From Dehalococcoidia bacterium (GTDB lineage: Bacteria > Chloroflexota > Dehalococcoidia > SZUA-161): 64,000 bases of DNA. The notes below the pieces were generated by a model, which was not told the DNA's origin, ran no database searches, and saw only the letters and a program-made list of their open reading frames with translations. Within the stretch, counting starts at the first letter, position 1. Every line of letters begins with the position of its first letter. The translations under genes were made by a program, and so were the position numbers. Location of the stretch: assembly GCA_014874385.1 (NCBI GenBank), contig JACWAE010000118.1:1-64000 (forward strand), in the 5' to 3' direction. Positions 42,519-52,265 of the stretch are shown in pieces.

Positions 42519-42547
42519 TTGACAAAGTCCTGAAAAAGTGTTATATT
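42519..42547 (+). promoter_or_regulatory. Sigma70-type promoter of sRNA copy 1
   Basis: TTGACA (42519-42524), 17-bp spacer, TATATT (42542-42547). Confidence 0.8.
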
Positions 42548-42553
42548 AAATCT

Positions 42554-42675
42554 AATCTCGGGTGGGCGAACCAGTTAGAGAAGACCAAATCCGCAAGAGG
42601 AAACGAGTAGGAAACCAAAGGGACCGGGAGGGCGGAAAAGGTCGAGGAAGCTGGGGAGGTCACCCGAGATTTTTT
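42554..42675 (+). ncRNA. Candidate small structured RNA, copy 1
   Basis: CTCGGGTG...CACCCGAG closing stem plus T-run; internal CCAGUU/AGCUGG, GACC/GGUC, UCCGC/GCGGA helices; near-identical to 44595-44717 (-). Confidence 0.75.
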
Positions 42676-44113
42676 ATGTGCCTGGCTCGGTGCCGGGCTT
42701 TTCCTCGCTCATCAGCGCTACAAAAGGCAAGTTGCGGTACTCCTCTTGATAGTCTAGCCCGTAACCCACCAGGAACTCATCGGGGACCTCGAATCCCACA
42801 TAGGTCAAGGGGGCTTCAGCCAGCCGACGTACCTTCTTATCGAGCAGGGTACAAACCGTCAAGCTGGCTGGCTTATGTTCCCTTAGATGGCCAATGACGA
42901 AGCTCAATGTCATTCCGGTATCTACAATATCCTCCACCAGTAGAACATGGCGGCCCTCCAGACTCAGATCGACGTCTTTGGTGACATGCACTGCCCTACC
43001 GCTCTCAGCCCCATAGTAGGAAATAGCCATGAAATCCACATCCGCAGGAACCGTGAGGTATCGCATCAGGTCCGCCATAAAGCAGAATACCCCCCGCAGT
43101 ACACCTACCAATACCGGGTGACGTCCTTCGTAGTCACGGGATATCTCTTTGGCAAGCTGCCGCACCCTTCTCTGTATCTGTGCGGCGCTGAAGAATACCC
43201 GCCCTACACCGCGCGTCTTCGTCCCTGCCAGAGGGCCATGTCCATATTTGGCAATCAGACGGTCATAGTCTCGACGTGCCAGAAGCTTGATGTTCACTTC
43301 AGGATAGAGTTCCCGCATACGGCGAACCCTGCGGTTCTTCACCCTGGTAAGCCCCGGCTTCAGAGTAGTCATCTCGACATAAAGGTCCAAGACAGGCAGA
43401 TAAAAATCAGGGGTGAACATCTCGCTGCCCTTGCCATCGTCCCACCTTAGCTCGAATGAGCGGGGCTCATAGAGCCACTCGATCTGGTAGAAGTCGAGGA
43501 GATGGGCGAACTCCTCCTCACTGGGATGGGCAAAAGTGGTCGGCTTGAGTTGTGAAGCTAGAGAAGCATGATGAGGTACGACTCTGGCTTCTGATTCTAG
43601 TAGAGGTTTTTCAATCTCGGCAAAGCGACCTGACTCCAGGACGATACCGGCCAGATTTGCTGCGGTGGTGAGGAACATCTCCTCCCTTAAAGTGAACTCA
43701 CGGCTGGTGCGGCTGTAGGCACGCAGGGTTCCCACTACCTCTCCTTTTATTTTCAAAGCAACGCTCAGGATAGAGGAGATATGTTCCAGTTGCGCTAATT
43801 CGTGAAACTGTATCCTGGGGTCAGTGGCTACATCGTGGATTGCCACTGTTTTTCCATCTAAGACCTCGGAAAGACTTTTCTCCGATTCCAGAAAGCCCTT
43901 CCTGAGATAGCGTTCGCTGAGGCCATGCGAAGCTGCATGAACGAGTCTCTTCCTCTGTGCGTCCAGCAACATGATGGAACAACCCCGGACTCCCAGAGCC
44001 CGGGCTGTGGCCTTCACCAGTAAACGGAGCTTCTCACTGGCGGTAAGGCTTGAGTTAACCGCCTCTGCAATCTCACTCAAGGATTTATTGAAACCATGAG
44101 TCTGTTTGCTCAC
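42674..44113 (-). CDS. GAF domain - PD-(D/E)XK-like domain - hypoxanthine phosphoribosyltransferase fusion
   Basis: GAF-like N-terminus; FTPDFYLPVLDLYVEMTTLK middle; C-terminal HPRT with VLVGVLRGVFCFMADLMR and VLLVEDIVDTGMTL. Confidence 0.8.
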   Translation of the reverse strand: MSKQTHGFNKSLSEIAEAVNSSLTASEKLRLLVKATARALGVRGCSIMLLDAQRKRLVHAASHGLSERYLRKGFLESEKSLSEVLDGKTVAIHDVATDPRIQFHELAQLEHISSILSVALKIKGEVVGTLRAYSRTSREFTLREEMFLTTAANLAGIVLESGRFAEIEKPLLESEARVVPHHASLASQLKPTTFAHPSEEEFAHLLDFYQIEWLYEPRSFELRWDDGKGSEMFTPDFYLPVLDLYVEMTTLKPGLTRVKNRRVRRMRELYPEVNIKLLARRDYDRLIAKYGHGPLAGTKTRGVGRVFFSAAQIQRRVRQLAKEISRDYEGRHPVLVGVLRGVFCFMADLMRYLTVPADVDFMAISYYGAESGRAVHVTKDVDLSLEGRHVLLVEDIVDTGMTLSFVIGHLREHKPASLTVCTLLDKKVRRLAEAPLTYVGFEVPDEFLVGYGLDYQEEYRNLPFVALMSEEKPGTEPGT

Positions 44114-44332
44114 CGCAACTTCCTTTCGCTGGCCGGGCGATAATCATCCTTGCTACGTCTCAGGCAGATTATTGGTGCCATTATAGGTGAAGGAAAGGTG
44201 TCAAGCAACCTTCTGTAATGAAAAAACATGGTAGTTTAGGAAGCAGACGAAAAGATTACACGTACAGGGAATATAAATACAAGCGTCATTGCTGCCAGTA
44301 GATGTCAGAATCACAAAGCAGCGATGGAGTCC

Positions 44333-44551
44333 CTAACCCACAGCCTCCCTTAGCTTCTTGATGAAATCGCGATGTTTCTGCTCATCACCAATTATCTGCT
44401 GCTTGAGCGTTCTCCAGGTAACGGGGCAATCTTTGTACTCAACCCCAACAATCTTATGAATCGCCTGGTCGATTTCTTTCCTGTTGCCAGGAGTCACCTC
44501 AACACCGGCCTCAGCCAGAATATCTTTCAAATGGCGGAAATAGCAAGACAT
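44333..44551 (-). CDS. small conserved-looking hypothetical protein
   Basis: 72-aa ORF MSCYFRHLKDILAEAGVEVTPGNRKEIDQAIHKIVGVEYKDCP. Confidence 0.65.
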   Translation of the reverse strand: MSCYFRHLKDILAEAGVEVTPGNRKEIDQAIHKIVGVEYKDCPVTWRTLKQQIIGDEQKHRDFIKKLREAVG

Positions 44552-44594
44552 CGAATGTTAACCTCTAGAGGAAAATTTGAGGCGCTGAAGACAT

Positions 44595-44717
44595 AAAAAA
44601 ACCTCGGGTGATCTCCCCAGCTTCCTCGACCTTTTCCGCTTCCTGGTCCCTTTGGTTTCCTACTCGTTTCCTTTTGCGGATTTAGTCTTCTCTAACTGGT
44701 TCGCCCACCCGAGGACA
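44595..44717 (-). ncRNA. Candidate small structured RNA, copy 2
   Basis: Same sequence as copy 1 apart from a handful of substitutions and one 1-nt indel; closing stem CCTCGGGTG/CACCCGAGG followed by seven T. Confidence 0.75.
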
Positions 44718-44723
44718 TTATTT

Positions 44724-44752
44724 AATGTAACACCCTTTTAGCCCTTTGTCAA
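44724..44752 (-). promoter_or_regulatory. Sigma70-type promoter of sRNA copy 2
   Basis: On the - strand: TTGACA (44752-44747), 17-bp spacer, TACATT (44729-44724). Confidence 0.8.
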
Positions 44753-44963: not shown

Positions 44964-45056
44964 ATGCATATCCTTTACATTATTTCAGGTGTGCTTTCCC
45001 TGGGTTTGTTGGTGTACCTTATGCTGGCACTTTTGAAACCTGATTGGTTGGAATGA
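44964..45056 (+). CDS. kdpF: KdpF-like small subunit
   Basis: [30 protein letters not shown]; overlaps kdpA start (ATGA); absent from ORF track. Confidence 0.7.
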   Translation: MHILYIISGVLSLGLLVYLMLALLKPDWLE

Positions 45057-46789
45057 CGACCTTCGACTGGCTTCAACTCGGTCTGTACTTATTTGTCCTG
45101 CTGCTGCTCGTTAAGCCGCTGGGTTCCTACATGGCGCGTGTCTATAAGGGTGAACGCACGTTCCTTTCCCCCGTGGTTCGACCTGTCGAGCGCCTCCTCT
45201 ATCACATCGCAGGCTTGCACGGCGACGAAGAGATGGACTGGAAGACGTACGCCGTTGCCATGTTGTTCTTCAATCTGGTGGGATTGCTACTCCTGTATGC
45301 TCTGCAGCGTTTTCAGTCCTCACTGCCGCTCAATCCCCAGAATTTAGGAGCAGTTCGCCCCGATACGGCTTTCGATGCTGCGGTCAGCTTTGCTACCAAC
45401 ACGAACTGGCAGAGCTACAGCGGAGAGACCACCATGAGCTATCTGATCCAAATGCTTGGGTTTACTGTACAGAACTTTCTGTCAGCGGCTACAGGCATGG
45501 CGATACTGGTTGCTCTGGTACGCGGCTTTGTGAGGCATTCTGGCAATACCATAGGCAATTTCTGGACTGACATGACTCGAACCATCCTCTATATCTTATT
45601 ACCCCTGGCTTTTGTACTGGCACTGGCTCTGGTATCACAGGGTGTAGTTCAGACGTTTCACAGCGCTCAGCAAGTGTCGCTCTTACAATCAACACAGGAC
45701 GCAGGTAATCAAACTATAAACCAGCAGACCCTGGCACTCGGGCCGGCGGCTTCCCAGGTTGCTATCAAGCAGCTTGGAACGAATGGCGGCGGTTTCTTCA
45801 ATGTTAATTCGTCACATCCCTTCGAAAACCCCACGCCTTTTTCCGACTTCCTGGAGATGCTGGCAATTCTGCTCATCCCCGCGTCGCTGTGCTATACCTT
45901 CGGCAAGATGGTAGGGGACACGCGCAAGGGCTGGGCTATACTTGCCGCCATGACTATCATCTTCGTGGCGCTGTTGTCCGTAACCGTATGGGCGGAGCAG
46001 AGCGGTAACTCCGCTGTAACCAGCCTCGGCGTTGACCAAACGGCCAGCAATCTTCAGTCCGGTGGCAACATGGAGGGCAAAGAGGTGCGCTTCGGCGTCG
46101 CTAACTCAGCTTTATGGGCCACCGCTACGACCTCTGCTTCAAACGGCTCGGTGAATTCCATGCACGACTCATTTACGCCGCTTGGCGGCTTAGTGCCGAT
46201 GTGGCTCATCCAGCTAGGAGAGGTGGTGTATGGTGGGGTCGGCTCAGGTCTATACGGCATGCTGGCCTTCGTGATAATTGCGGTCTTCGTGGCCGGGCTC
46301 ATGATAGGACGTACTCCTGAATACCTGGGTAAGAAGATTGAATCATACGAAATGAAGATGGCTTCGCTAATGGTGCTGCTCCCGGTACTGGTCGTGCTCC
46401 TGGGAACAGCAATCTCTGTGATAGTACCTGCTGGTAAAGCGGCGGCGTATAACCCCGGCGCACACGGCTTCAGTGAGATACTGTACGCCTTCTCTTCGGC
46501 GGGCAATAATAACGGCAGCGCCTTCGCCGGTATCGCTGCTAATACATCATACTACAATATCATGCTTGGTTTCGCCATGCTCCTGGGTCGCTACTGGCTG
46601 GCCATTCCCGCGCTGGCCATAGCCGGTTCGTTGGTGCGTAAAAAGAGTGTGCCTGTAAGCTCCGGCACACTCCCCACACATACGCCGCTATTCATTGGCT
46701 GGCTCATAGCGGTAGTCATTATTGTGGGTGCTCTCAGCTTCTTACCTGCCCTTTCTCTCGGACCTTTAGTAGAACATCTGATGAGGTAA
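45053..46789 (+). CDS. kdpA: potassium-transporting ATPase subunit A
   Basis: KdpA motifs [50 protein letters not shown]. Confidence 0.95.
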
Positions 46790-46794
46790 CAGAA

Positions 46795-48921
46795 GTGACA
46801 CAGGACCCGCAGCTATCAGGCACTGGACCGACCGAAGGCGTGGCGACTACCTATCCCAGAAAGCAACCACGCCTGGGAGTGAAGGTCTACCGTCAGGCGA
46901 TTATCTACGCTTTCCTTAAACTCAATCCACGCTGGATGGTGCGCAACCCCGTCATGTTTGTGGTGGAAGTGGGCAGTATACTGACAACTGCTCTGTGGGT
47001 GCAAGCACTTCTGGGACATGGTGAAGCAAAAGCCAGTTTCATTGGCGCCATTACTTTGTGGTTGTGGCTCACTGTGCTCTTTGCCAATTTCTCCGAGGCC
47101 CTGGCCGAGAGTCGGGGTAAAGCGCAAGCGGCCGCCCTGCGTCGAGCCCGGCAAGAGACTCAGGCCAAGAAACTCAGTCATCCTAAATACGGGGCTGAAT
47201 ATGACCTGGTTCCGTCTAGCGCCTTGAAGCAGGATGATATGTTCTTTGTGGAGGCTGGTGATATTATTCCGGCTGATGGCGAGGTGATTGATGGTATTGC
47301 CTCAGTGGATGAGAGCGCCATCACTGGCGAGAGCGCACCCGTTATTCGTGAATCTGGAGGAGACCGGAGCGCCGTCACCGGTGGGACACGTGTGCTATCG
47401 GATTGGTTGATAGTGCGAGTAACGGCTAGCCCCGGCGAAGGGTTCCTTGACCGTATCATCGGTCTGGTAGAAGGAGCAAAGCGCCAGAAGACGCCTAACG
47501 AAATCGCTCTTAATACCCTGCTAGCAGCATTTACCATCGTCTTTCTCGTTGTCTGCATTACGTTGCTGCCCTATTCGCTATTCAGTGTTGAAGTGAACCA
47601 TCAGGGCACGCCTATTACTATTACTGTGCTGGTGGCGTTGCTGGTCTGCCTTATTCCAACTACTATTGGCGGGCTATTGCCAGCCATTGGCATTGCGGGA
47701 ATGGACCGCTTTATCCGACGCAACATCATTGCATTATCCGGCCGTGCGGTAGAAGCTGCTGGGGATGTAGATGTACTATTGCTGGACAAGACAGGCACTA
47801 TCACTCTGGGCAATCGCCAGGCAGTAGAGTTCATCCCTATGGGCAAGGTGAACGAGCGGGAGCTGGCAGAAGCGGCACAACTCGCTTCTCTGGCTGACGA
47901 GACGCCAGAGGGTCGCAGTATAGTTGTATTAGCCAAGGAAAAGTATGGGCTGCGGGGCAGCGCAGGTCGCGACGAACCACGCGGCATGCACTTTATCCCG
48001 TTTTCGGCACAGACGCGTATGAGCGGTGTAGACCTGGATGGACTGAGCATCCGCAAGGGCGCCTATGATGCCATCATGGCTTACATTCAACAGCAGGGCA
48101 AGTCGGTGCCGCCGGAACTGAAGGCTATAGTTGAGAGCATTTCTAAAGCAGGTGGCACGCCCCTAGTGGTAGCACGCAACGGTGAAGTACTGGGTGTGGT
48201 CCATCTCAAAGATATTGTCAAGGGTGGAATAAAAGAACGTTTTATCAAAATGCGAAAGATGGGTATCAAGACAGTGATGATTACCGGCGATAATCCGCTC
48301 ACAGCAACTGCCATTGCGGCTGAAGCGGGGGTGGACGACTTTCTGGCGGAGGCCACCCCTGAAACCAAACTCAAGCTGATACGCGAATACCAGGCCGGCG
48401 GACGGTTGGTAGCCATGACCGGCGATGGCACAAATGACGCTCCGGCGCTGGCGCAGGCCGATGTCGCCGTAGCCATGAACACCGGGACACAACCGGCGCG
48501 CGAAGCCGCTAACATGATTGACCTCGAGAGCAACCCAACCAAATTGATTGAAATAGTGGAGATAGGCAAACAACTGCTGATGACGCGCGGCGCTTTGACC
48601 ACGTTTAGCATCTCCAATGACGTGTCCAAATATTTCGTTATCATCCCTGCAGCATTTGCCAGTACTTACCCCGCACTGAGAGCCCTGAATTTCATGCACC
48701 TGTCTACGCCGGAAAGCGCTGTTATGTCAGCCGTGATATTCAATGCACTAATTATCATCGCGCTCATACCGCTGGCCCTGCGCGGTGTGCCCTACCGTCC
48801 GGTGGGAGCGGCAACACTGCTGCGTAACAACCTCCTAGTCTACGGGTTAGGAGGGTTAATCGTGCCATTTGGCGGCATCAAATTAATAGACATGATTCTG
48901 GTGGCTCTGAGGTTGGCATAG
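46795..48921 (+). CDS. kdpB: potassium-transporting ATPase subunit B
   Basis: P-type ATPase [35 protein letters not shown]. Confidence 0.95.
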
Positions 48922-48945
48922 TTCATAACATAGGAGGTAGGCTCT

Positions 48946-49518
48946 ATGCTGCGTCAGCTTCGAATCGCCATAATATTTCTGGCTCTGTTCACCGTGCTCA
49001 CAGGGATAATTTATCCTCTGGTCGTGACCGGCATTGCTCAAACCGCGTTTCCTCATCAGGCTAACGGCAGCCTGATTGTGAAAGATGGAAATTACACCGG
49101 CTCCGAGTTGATAGGTCAGCCGTTCAGTGACCCCAAATACTTCTGGGGCAGGCTCTCAGCGACGGCGCCTTTCCCGTACAATGCAGCAGCCTCCTCGGGC
49201 TCAAACTACGGGCCACTCAACCCTGCATTGACTGAGGAAATTCAAGCGCGGATAGATGCACTGAAAGCGGTCGATCCTACAAACGATCAACCAATCCCTG
49301 TGGACTTGGTGACCTCCTCAGCAAGTGGCCTCGACCCGGACATCAGCGTCGCGGCTGCTCTCTATCAAGTCCCTCGTGTGGCACGGTACCGCGGACTTAG
49401 TGAAGAACAAGTTTATGGCCTTGTAAATCGCTTCATTGAAGGCCGCCAGTTCGGCATCTTAGGCGAGCCGCGAGTAAACGTCTTGAAGCTTAATCTGGCG
49501 CTGGATGAACTGAAATAG
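48946..49518 (+). CDS. kdpC: potassium-transporting ATPase subunit C
   Basis: KdpC pattern [21 protein letters not shown]...[13 protein letters not shown]...[10 protein letters not shown]. Confidence 0.94.
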
Positions 49519-49571
49519 ACTTGCCCGTAACAGAGTATAATATGTGGCTGTGACTTGGAGAGGCAAATCAT

Positions 49572-52265
49572 ATGGCCGAAAAGAGTTCTGGCCCTAATCC
49601 CGATGAAGTGCTGGCGCGAATCAAAGCCGAGGCCAAGCAGCCAAAGCGTGGCAAACTCAAAATCTTTCTCGGCTACGCCGCCGGTGTGGGCAAGACCTAT
49701 ACCATGTTGGAGTCCGCTCGCCAGCTCAGAAAGGACGTCGATCTTGTTGTCGCCTATGTAGAGACGCATGGCCGGCCTGAAACTGAGGCTCTTCTGGAAG
49801 GGCTTGAGATCATTCCACGCAGAGAGGTGGGGTACCGCGGCGTGACGCTGACTGAGATGGACCTGGATGCGGTGCTGGCGCGTCGGCCCCAGTTGGCACT
49901 GGTAGATGAACTCGCCCATACTAATGCCCCGGACTCGCGCCACCCCAAGCGTTATCAAGACGTAGAGGAACTGCTGGAGGCCGGAATAGATGTTTACACT
50001 ACACTCAATGTCCAGCATATCGAGAGTTTACAGAGTACGGTAGCGCAAATGTCAGGCGTCTGGGTACACGAAACAGTCCCCGACACTGTTGTTGACAATG
50101 CGGCGGAGATTGAGCTGGTTGACCTGCCTCCCGAAGACCTGCTGAAACGACTTAAAGAAGGCAAAGTCTATGTCCCCCAGCAAATAACGCGTGCAGCTAC
50201 TAATTTCTTCCGCGAGGGTAACCTCATCGCACTGCGCGAGTTGAGCATGCGCACTGCCGCGCAGCGTGTGGACGAGCAGATGCGGGCTCATATGGAGACT
50301 CGTGCTATCCCTGGCCCCTGGCCAACTGTCGAACGCATTCTAGTGTGCGTAAGGCCTGGCCCTCAGGGCAATCGCTTAGTGCACTCTGCTTACAGGCTGG
50401 CCTCTCGACTGGGTGCCGAATGGTTTGCCATCTACGTTGAGACACCCGATAGCGCCCAGCTGTCGCCGGACCGGCAGGACCGGCTCATGAATATGTTGCG
50501 GCTGGCTGAACAGTTGGGAGGCAAGGCTGCGACCGTTCAGGGACGCTCTGTCGGCGCAGCCATAGCAGAATATGCCAGCAAGAACAACATCACCAAGATA
50601 CTTGTCGGTAAGCCTGATGATAGACGTTGGTGGAACCTGCCGGGCAGATCAGTTGCGAGTCAAATCATTCGCCAGACCGAACATATTGATGTGTACATTG
50701 TCGGCGGCAATAGAGAAGTGCGCCCGAAGCGAGAAGAAACGGCAGCCAGGCAGCTATCACATCGTTGGTGGCGCTACCTTTTGGGCTTGGCATTGGTAGG
50801 CTTGTCTACCTTGCTGGGTCTTGCGATGCGTCCCCATTTCTCACCCACTACCATAGTAATGATCTACCTGCTGAGCGTTGTCGTTTCGGCCCTTTACCTT
50901 GGCCTCGGCCCTTCTATCCTGGTCTCCGTCCTTGGTGTGTTAGTATTTGATTTCTTTCTTATTCCTCCGTATCTCACCTTTGCTGTGACAGACACGCAAT
51001 ATGTTTTCACCTTCATCGTATTACTAGGAATAGGTATTGTGGTCAGTTATTTGACGTCACGGGTTCGCCGACAAACCAGAGTGGCGCGTCACCGCGAATC
51101 CGCAACAGCTACCCTTTATGCTCTAAGTCGTAACCTGACCACCACGATGGAATTGGAGGCTACTGTACAGGCTATTATTAGCAGCGCCAGGGAGACATTT
51201 GGACGAGATGCAGCAATCTTTCTGCCCGATGACCAGAATAAGGAAATACTTAAGCACCATGCTGAGAACCCAAACCTTGTCATTGATAAGAATGAAGTCG
51301 CTGCAGCAGTATGGTCTTTTCAGCACCGAAAGAGGGCAGGACAGAGTACTGATACGCTCCCTAATGCCAAAGCGCTATATTTGCCGCTGAATACAGCCAG
51401 CGGCGTAGTGGGAGTAATGGCTCTATGGGTATCTGACACAACAAGCCAGTTGACGATCGAACAAACACGGCTTTTAGAGGCCTTCGCCGACCTTGCCGCA
51501 GTGGCAATTGAGCGCACTCAACTGGCTGAGGAGGCGCGTAATGCGCAAATCTTGGCAGCCACGGAGAAACTGCAAACAGCACTTCTCAATTCAATCTCGC
51601 ATGACTTGCGCACACCATTGGTGTCTATCATCGGCGTGCTGACCAGTCTTCGAGAAGAAGGAATGGGCCTGGATGATGCAGCCAGAACGAATCTAATCCA
51701 GGTCGCGACTGAGGAAGCGGAAAGGCTGAACCACTTGATAACCAATCTGCTTGATGTCTCCAGAATTGAAGCTGGTGCAATCAGGATATCCAGGCAGTCA
51801 TCCGATGTGCAGGACATAATAGGCGTAGCTTTGGAACAGTTGGGCAGCCGCTCCGGCAGCCACCCTATCAATATAGACATATCCTCAGCGCTACCCTTTG
51901 TGTCTGTGGATTTTGGCCTTATCGTACAGGCGCTGGTTAACATTATGGACAACGCGCTCAAGTATTCACCTCCCGATTCGCCTATTGAAATCAGCGGGCG
52001 GCAGGTTGCCCAGCAGGTCGAGATCGAAGTGGCGGACCTGGGGGCCGGTATCCCGCCTGAGGACTTGCAGCATGTTTTCGACAAGTTCTATCGTGTGCAC
52101 CGCCCAGATAATGTGACCGGCACAGGGTTGGGGTTATCCATCAGCAAAGGGATTATTGAGGCACACGGCGGTCACATTGTGGCCGGGAACCGTCCTGGTG
52201 GCGGCACGATTATCAGGTTAACGCTGCCGGTTGCGGAGGTTATTTCGAAGGACAAGGGGCAATGA
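49572..52265 (+). CDS. kdpD: osmosensitive K+ channel histidine kinase KdpD
   Basis: KIFLGYAAGVGKTYTMLE, USP domain, 4 TM, GAF, HisKA/HATPase. Confidence 0.95.
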   Translation: MAEKSSGPNPDEVLARIKAEAKQPKRGKLKIFLGYAAGVGKTYTMLESARQLRKDVDLVVAYVETHGRPETEALLEGLEIIPRREVGYRGVTLTEMDLDAVLARRPQLALVDELAHTNAPDSRHPKRYQDVEELLEAGIDVYTTLNVQHIESLQSTVAQMSGVWVHETVPDTVVDNAAEIELVDLPPEDLLKRLKEGKVYVPQQITRAATNFFREGNLIALRELSMRTAAQRVDEQMRAHMETRAIPGPWPTVERILVCVRPGPQGNRLVHSAYRLASRLGAEWFAIYVETPDSAQLSPDRQDRLMNMLRLAEQLGGKAATVQGRSVGAAIAEYASKNNITKILVGKPDDRRWWNLPGRSVASQIIRQTEHIDVYIVGGNREVRPKREETAARQLSHRWWRYLLGLALVGLSTLLGLAMRPHFSPTTIVMIYLLSVVVSALYLGLGPSILVSVLGVLVFDFFLIPPYLTFAVTDTQYVFTFIVLLGIGIVVSYLTSRVRRQTRVARHRESATATLYALSRNLTTTMELEATVQAIISSARETFGRDAAIFLPDDQNKEILKHHAENPNLVIDKNEVAAAVWSFQHRKRAGQSTDTLPNAKALYLPLNTASGVVGVMALWVSDTTSQLTIEQTRLLEAFADLAAVAIERTQLAEEARNAQILAATEKLQTALLNSISHDLRTPLVSIIGVLTSLREEGMGLDDAARTNLIQVATEEAERLNHLITNLLDVSRIEAGAIRISRQSSDVQDIIGVALEQLGSRSGSHPINIDISSALPFVSVDFGLIVQALVNIMDNALKYSPPDSPIEISGRQVAQQVEIEVADLGAGIPPEDLQHVFDKFYRVHRPDNVTGTGLGLSISKGIIEAHGGHIVAGNRPGGGTIIRLTLPVAEVISKDKGQ

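Follow-up and report, generated by a model that had tools for sequence, protein, structure and literature searches.

A structured RNA family of Dehalococcoidia and its linkage to a GAF/T7-endonuclease-I-like/HPRT fusion gene, a candidate protein partner

Results and discussion

Two copies of a small RNA gene bracket a fusion gene

The window, meaning the whole stretch of 64,000 nucleotides analysed here, carries a gene for a fusion protein with GAF, nuclease-like and HPRT parts, bracketed by two copies (A and B) of a small RNA gene (Table 1). An earlier note, made from the sequence alone, had described an element of ~111 nt present twice and facing each other. Both copies are indeed found, with 112 and 111 nt, and they are 94% identical within the transcripts, with about six differing positions and one 1-nt indel. 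Since their similarity extends beyond the transcripts into the promoters, the proposal that a whole transcription unit was duplicated holds. Each copy is preceded, as had been noted, by TTGACA-N17-TA(T/C)ATT, and both promoters also carry an extended -10 TG. The closing stem, CUCGGGUG/CACCCGAG in the window copies, and the T-run that follows it were likewise found at both ends; the T-run of copy A abuts the stop codon of the fusion gene, which is convergent with it (ORF end at 42674). The family covariance model retrieved exactly copies A and B from the window, at 151 bits each, and only these two from the genome assembly.

Table 1. Features of the RNA and fusion gene locus, in window coordinates
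Feature	Position	Strand	Details or basis
Promoter, copy A	42519-42547	+	TTGACA 42519-42524, N17, TG 42539-42540, TATATT 42542-42547
RNA copy A	42557-42668	+	112 nt
Closing stem P1, copy A	42557-42564/42661-42668	+	A-U pairs allow extension to 42554/42671
Inner helices, copy A		+	P2 CCAGUU/AGCUGG, P3 GACC/GGUC, P4 UCCGC/GCGGA
Apical core, copy A		+	GAGUAGGAAACCAAAGGGACC
Intrinsic terminator of copy A (T-run behind P1)	42670-42675	+	Sequence
Fusion protein, 479 aa	42674-44113	-	GAF 29-160, middle ~190-296, HPRT 306-468
Middle PD-(D/E)XK T7-endonuclease-I-like domain	43226-43546	-	Profile and model
72-aa ORF (MSCYFRHLKDILAEAGVEV...) between copy B and fusion gene	44333-44551	-	ORF list, conservation
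T-run, terminator of copy B	44601-44595	-	Sequence
RNA copy B	44603-44713, 5' end at 44713	-	111 nt, helices as in copy A
Promoter, copy B	44724-44752	-	TTGACA 44752-44747, N17, TACATT 44729-44724, extended -10 TG

Homologues occur across Dehalococcoidia

Of the 8 other genomes in the family of the window genome, 7 gave BLASTN matches to the RNA. A covariance model built from the four closest copies (R1) recovered all of these and two more families (15 genomes, at most five copies per genome). A search for the fusion protein through the class, followed by reading of the downstream DNA, exposed many RNAs too divergent for R1. A second covariance model (R2) added 27 further genomes, whose extra copies again lie in unrelated intergenic regions. 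The divergent homologues, 65-271 nt long, occur across Dehalococcoidia and in a single family beyond that class. What they have in common is the promoter and a closing stem like GUCCCAAGUAAUC/GGUUACUUGGGGC; their interiors differ. Paralogues vary at their apices, forming types of 72, 99, ~119 and ~157 nt, and have in common the promoter, the closing stem, a GAA/GGA internal loop and CCAG/CUGG. At one locus (L027), the minimal 72-nt RNA is present twice, at 1501-1572 and 2208-2279, about 700 bp apart and both adjoining the fusion gene. At two others (L086 and L087), a ~180-nt RNA has a similar start and closing stem and a weaker -35. Matches of the relaxed detector alone were left uncounted; some of them are false (for example a tRNA in L088; in L087, the same tRNA came out on top in another scan).

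The RNA is convergent with the fusion gene at most loci sampled

When the flanks were read, the RNA mostly stood tail-to-tail with the fusion gene, which in the window lies between the two copies. The best 80 named loci were sampled, locating the family in Dehalococcoidia/Chloroflexota, and 73 of them had enough flanking sequence. Under a purely structural detection rule, which asks only for a sigma-70 promoter, a T-run and a stem with 8 bp or more, an RNA convergent at the 3' end of the fusion gene was found in 48 of these 73 loci. Applied to control flanks, the same rule gave none in the 3' flank on the strand of the gene, and 0 and 1 on the two strands of the 5' flank. About one third of the fusion loci are without the RNA under this strict rule.

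The arrangement is not fixed in detail. The distance from the RNA to the stop codon ranges from touching to more than 200 nt, and in one genome (G053, L232) the RNA lies 2.5 kb from the fusion gene. At L106 and L108 it is adjacent but reversed, on the same strand as the fusion gene, and many copies sit far from it, at unrelated sites. Outside the class, 15 loci (L207-L221) encode a two-domain protein, nuclease-like plus HPRT without GAF; the RNA adjoins this version in 4 of the 15 (L217-L220), all in one family of the same phylum (f116). The fusion gene is present in 25 of the 26 genomes with a covariance model match, compared with 79 of all 198 (Fisher ~1e-10). These counts were compiled by hand without correction for relatedness, the adjacency itself inflates them, and the sensitivity of the covariance models is limited.

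The promoter and the predicted rod are conserved

The promoter of the family is a near-consensus sigma-70 promoter, TTGACAAA, followed by TGTGnTAnnnT. TTGACA is the -35 in 48 of 48 members, where the detector demands a TTG start, and the 48 promoters read C-TTGACA-AA around it. The spacer is 17 nt in 43 of the 48, and about 46 have TG at -15/-14, an extended -10 that the detector does not demand. Aligned homologues of the window copies also retain the promoter. Transcription should start about 6 nt before the closing stem, and the predicted product is a single rod, with a length of ~112-120 nt in the window genome and of 65-271 nt among relatives.

Single-strand folding reproduced the rod that the earlier note had drawn by hand. 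Compared with 200 dinucleotide shuffles, the stability of the fold has z-scores of -4.7 and -3.1 for the two copies, with none of the 200 as good. The observation that differences between the copies keep the helices pairable extends to 12 window-type homologues, where 96% of cells in the drawn helices are paired and 8 pairs have changed on both sides. This level of pairing and double changes was equalled by only 0-2 of 500 shuffles, and when the partner was shifted by one base, pairing fell below 50%. Inside the 110-nt class itself, covariation is modest. Across 72 homologues, each of ten positions of P1 is paired in at least 63, with A-U/G-C and C-G/U-A exchanges and GU wobble. The multiple alignment used is oriented and model-based (A6). 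The closing stem is 10-14 bp long and doubles as an intrinsic terminator, and most of the RNA is paired.

The interior is modular. GUA and GAA flanking a hairpin of 2-5 bp were found in 28 of 48 RNAs, compared with a mean of 1.9 and a maximum of 7 in shuffles. In sequence, this GUA...GAA hairpin agrees with the bulged-G (sarcin-ricin) motif; judged on that basis, hairpins of this type occur in many members above chance, and their three-dimensional fold is predicted only. The window core, GAGUAGGAAACCAAAGGGACC, is a looser GUA/GAA hairpin outside the counted pattern, and relatives of the same type have GAGUAGGAAGCGAAAGG as their core. One homologue (L064, RNA at 165-398 of the flank read, 234 nt) contains about five tandem GAGUA..GAAAA hairpin modules.

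From these sequence features, we conclude that the RNA is a separate gene with a strong promoter, forming a self-terminating rod, under selection for its structure and recurrently linked to one family of proteins.

The RNA matches none of the known families tested

A search of the window against Rfam 15, from the gathering threshold to E<=10, returned nothing that matches the RNA copies, and in the same search of diverse homologues nothing convincing overlapped the RNAs. Several known classes were considered individually. ARAGORN made no tRNA or tmRNA call on the copies. They are without a match to SRP (4.5S) RNA (RF00169), and the SRP RNA of the genome lies at another place (G000:C18). The 6S RNA (RF00013) is alike in being a free-standing rod with its own sigma-70 promoter, sometimes in more than one copy. 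However, RF00013 matches are absent from the window and from all 21 genomes searched, with E. coli and other controls positive, and 6S RNA lacks the linkage to the fusion gene. The family spans 65-271 nt, whereas 6S RNA has ~160-200 nt and a large central bubble that mimics open promoter DNA; the rods studied here do have internal loops, without evidence so far that one of them is such a bubble.

Bacterial Y RNAs, which act with Ro60/Rsr, have stem-closed ends, a variable inside and few copies, and often lie near the gene of their partner. The RNAs studied here have no Rfam match, their stem sequence is different, and the TROVE (Ro60/Rsr) protein was found in 0 of 41 relatives. CsrB/RsmZ sponge RNAs resemble the family in their variable number of repeated hairpins and their own promoter and terminator; CsrA was found in 0 of 9 genomes of the family, the window genome included.

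A non-coding RNA survey of 50 genomes names only the rdhA motif for Dehalococcoides (PMC11109978), and the Chloroflexi RNAs of a 104-motif survey include Chloroflexi-1 and pan (PMC2864571). Both are Rfam families, and neither matches this RNA. Our literature search, in which subscription journals were barely covered, retrieved no description of the RNA or of an RNA-protein pair, and no link between such a fusion protein and RNA.

Taken together, these results support the earlier inference of an undescribed small RNA: nothing significant was found in Rfam, homologues with compensatory changes exist in relatives and the promoter is kept in distant homologues, although no transcript has been shown. 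We are highly confident that the RNA family is real and, within the tests available, undescribed. To that first description, the present analysis adds the wider family, a constant neighbour gene, dispersed extra copies and a recurring internal hairpin.

The fusion protein joins GAF, nuclease-like and HPRT domains

Pfam assigns GAF and Pribosyltran in the fusion protein and leaves the middle without assignment. The HPRT end scores 190.9 bits with TIGR01203 (HGPRTase), above the equivalog cut-off of 150, in agreement with Foldseek, and its motifs appear fully catalytic (EDIVDTGMTL). A profile of the middle domain compared with the PDB has T7 endonuclease I as its best match (E 0.001) and also hits two other endonuclease I entries, and a two-domain relative matches Pfam Phage_endo_I (PF05367, E 6e-4). 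The full-length AF2 model is weak (pLDDT 71) except for HPRT, and the middle domain was therefore modelled separately, with a pLDDT of 90. Foldseek matches of this model are weak (probability ~0.8) and are mostly restriction, homing or PD-(D/E)XK nucleases.

The middle domain conserves Glu, PD and E-x-T and shares with the T7 endonuclease I family (PF05367) and PD-(D/E)XK enzymes the profile match and the Glu, PD and Glu residues. It differs in having ExT where that family has ExK, and in its placement between GAF and HPRT. All 45 aligned sequences have Thr at the position of the catalytic Lys, without exception, and an invariant Lys sits 12 residues beyond E-x-T. Because of this replacement, the domain may be able to bind structured nucleic acid and yet not cut it in the usual manner, unless the Lys 12 residues on substitutes; both binding and cutting are inferred. 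In a search for defence systems with PADLOC, the window fusion protein had no match, and a relative had one trivial match.

A possible RNA-protein partnership and its alternatives

What could such an RNA do? The strong promoter, the extra copies and the absence of coding potential lead us to infer that it would be abundant and trans-acting. We propose that it constitutes a new class of free-standing structured RNA whose likeliest partner, or target of regulation, is the neighbouring GAF/T7-endonuclease-I-like/HPRT protein, a proposal that we hold to be evenly balanced, with no binding, expression or phenotype data. The nuclease-like domain, with Thr in place of the catalytic Lys, would grip the structured RNA, which in turn would scaffold or control purine salvage, GAF sensing and HPRT performing it. 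Since the HPRT motifs look fully catalytic, the RNA would not be needed for the chemistry itself. Attenuation by PyrR, in which a protein of the phosphoribosyltransferase fold acts through RNA, would by analogy be a precedent for the partnership. By contrast with the PyrR system, the RNA here is free-standing, the phosphoribosyltransferase is a true HPRT, and the part proposed to grip RNA is an added nuclease-like domain. The extended version, a ribonucleoprotein in which a dedicated multicopy RNA binds and controls a GAF, altered junction-nuclease and HPRT enzyme, providing RNA-regulated purine salvage conserved across the class, remains tentative, with the balance tilting slightly against it.

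Against this partnership stand the conserved adjacency, which can be inherited without being functional, the many copies far from the fusion gene and the fusion loci without the RNA. The RNA could be an abundant trans-acting molecule with another partner (RNA polymerase, as for 6S, an unknown chaperone or the ribosome), the fusion gene being merely an old neighbour. Strong promoters, the rod shape and dispersed copies would all suit such a role, and the 6S slot looks empty, as a scan of these genomes with the Rfam model yielded no 6S RNA. However, 6S RNA is far less variable in length and module number, its model does not match, and the RNA studied here is repeatedly a neighbour of the fusion gene, in two orientations and also beyond the class, so that we regard this explanation as unlikely, without setting it aside. 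A purely local role, as a shared 3' terminator or as an antisense RNA over the end of the fusion mRNA, is suggested by the T-run of copy A touching the stop codon and by the usual tail-to-tail arrangement. Yet a role in cis alone is hard to reconcile with a distance to the stop codon that varies so widely, up to 2.5 kb, and with copies that are dispersed to unrelated loci or, like copy B, lie upstream of the gene; a terminator, moreover, has no need of a conserved promoter. We judge this reading improbable.

We give less credence still to regulatory sRNAs that act by base pairing, a family in which the closing stem would stay constant and the loops would vary with the target. In its favour are the constant ends, the variable inside and several paralogues per genome with different apices, but the RNA is mostly paired, and the apical core is conserved where targeting least expects it and fits a structural hairpin motif. 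Finally, dispersed copies, and the two inverted ones on either side of the fusion gene and the 72-aa ORF here, might evoke a small mobile or selfish repeat carrying a promoter and a terminator. This we find very hard to sustain: there are compensatory changes, the location is conserved across families and in one outside taxon, and the genome has only 2 copies, a picture that suggests fixed loci, passed on vertically, with RNA structure kept by purifying selection. The partnership between the RNA and the fusion protein is retained as the best-supported mechanism; inferred from genome context without binding data, it is unproven and, in our estimate, has at most an even chance of being right.

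Dehalococcoidia are a bacterial class important for groundwater dechlorination. A structured RNA family found class-wide, absent from Rfam and from the literature retrieved, would fill a gap in the knowledge of a phylum that has been little studied. Should the RNA prove to bind the fusion protein, a core purine enzyme would have an RNA as its cofactor or regulator, a case for which we know of no bacterial precedent. The family alignment and the candidate partner render this RNA-protein hypothesis directly testable.

Other neighbours of the RNA copies

Further genes adjoin RNA copies in the window and elsewhere. The 72-aa ORF is conserved at the same place and in the same order in another genome (G004, L030 1700-1927); it belongs to no Pfam family and has one sub-threshold NCBIfam match. 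In two genomes, extra RNA copies are convergent with a gene for an uncharacterised protein of ~350 aa (MSGQVYGDRLICYLDIMGLKNRI...; L024 549-1661, L039 1671-2729), which matches nothing in Pfam or NCBIfam. Two genomes of a single genus have extra copies convergent with a RelA/SpoT gene (L031 1501-1657, L041 1501-1653). ppGpp and HPRT are metabolically linked; these two copies may reflect one inherited event. In the window itself, a kdp potassium-transport operon (45044-52265, + strand) starts just past copy B, with kdpA, kdpB, kdpC and a kdpD-like sensor, named from their translations.
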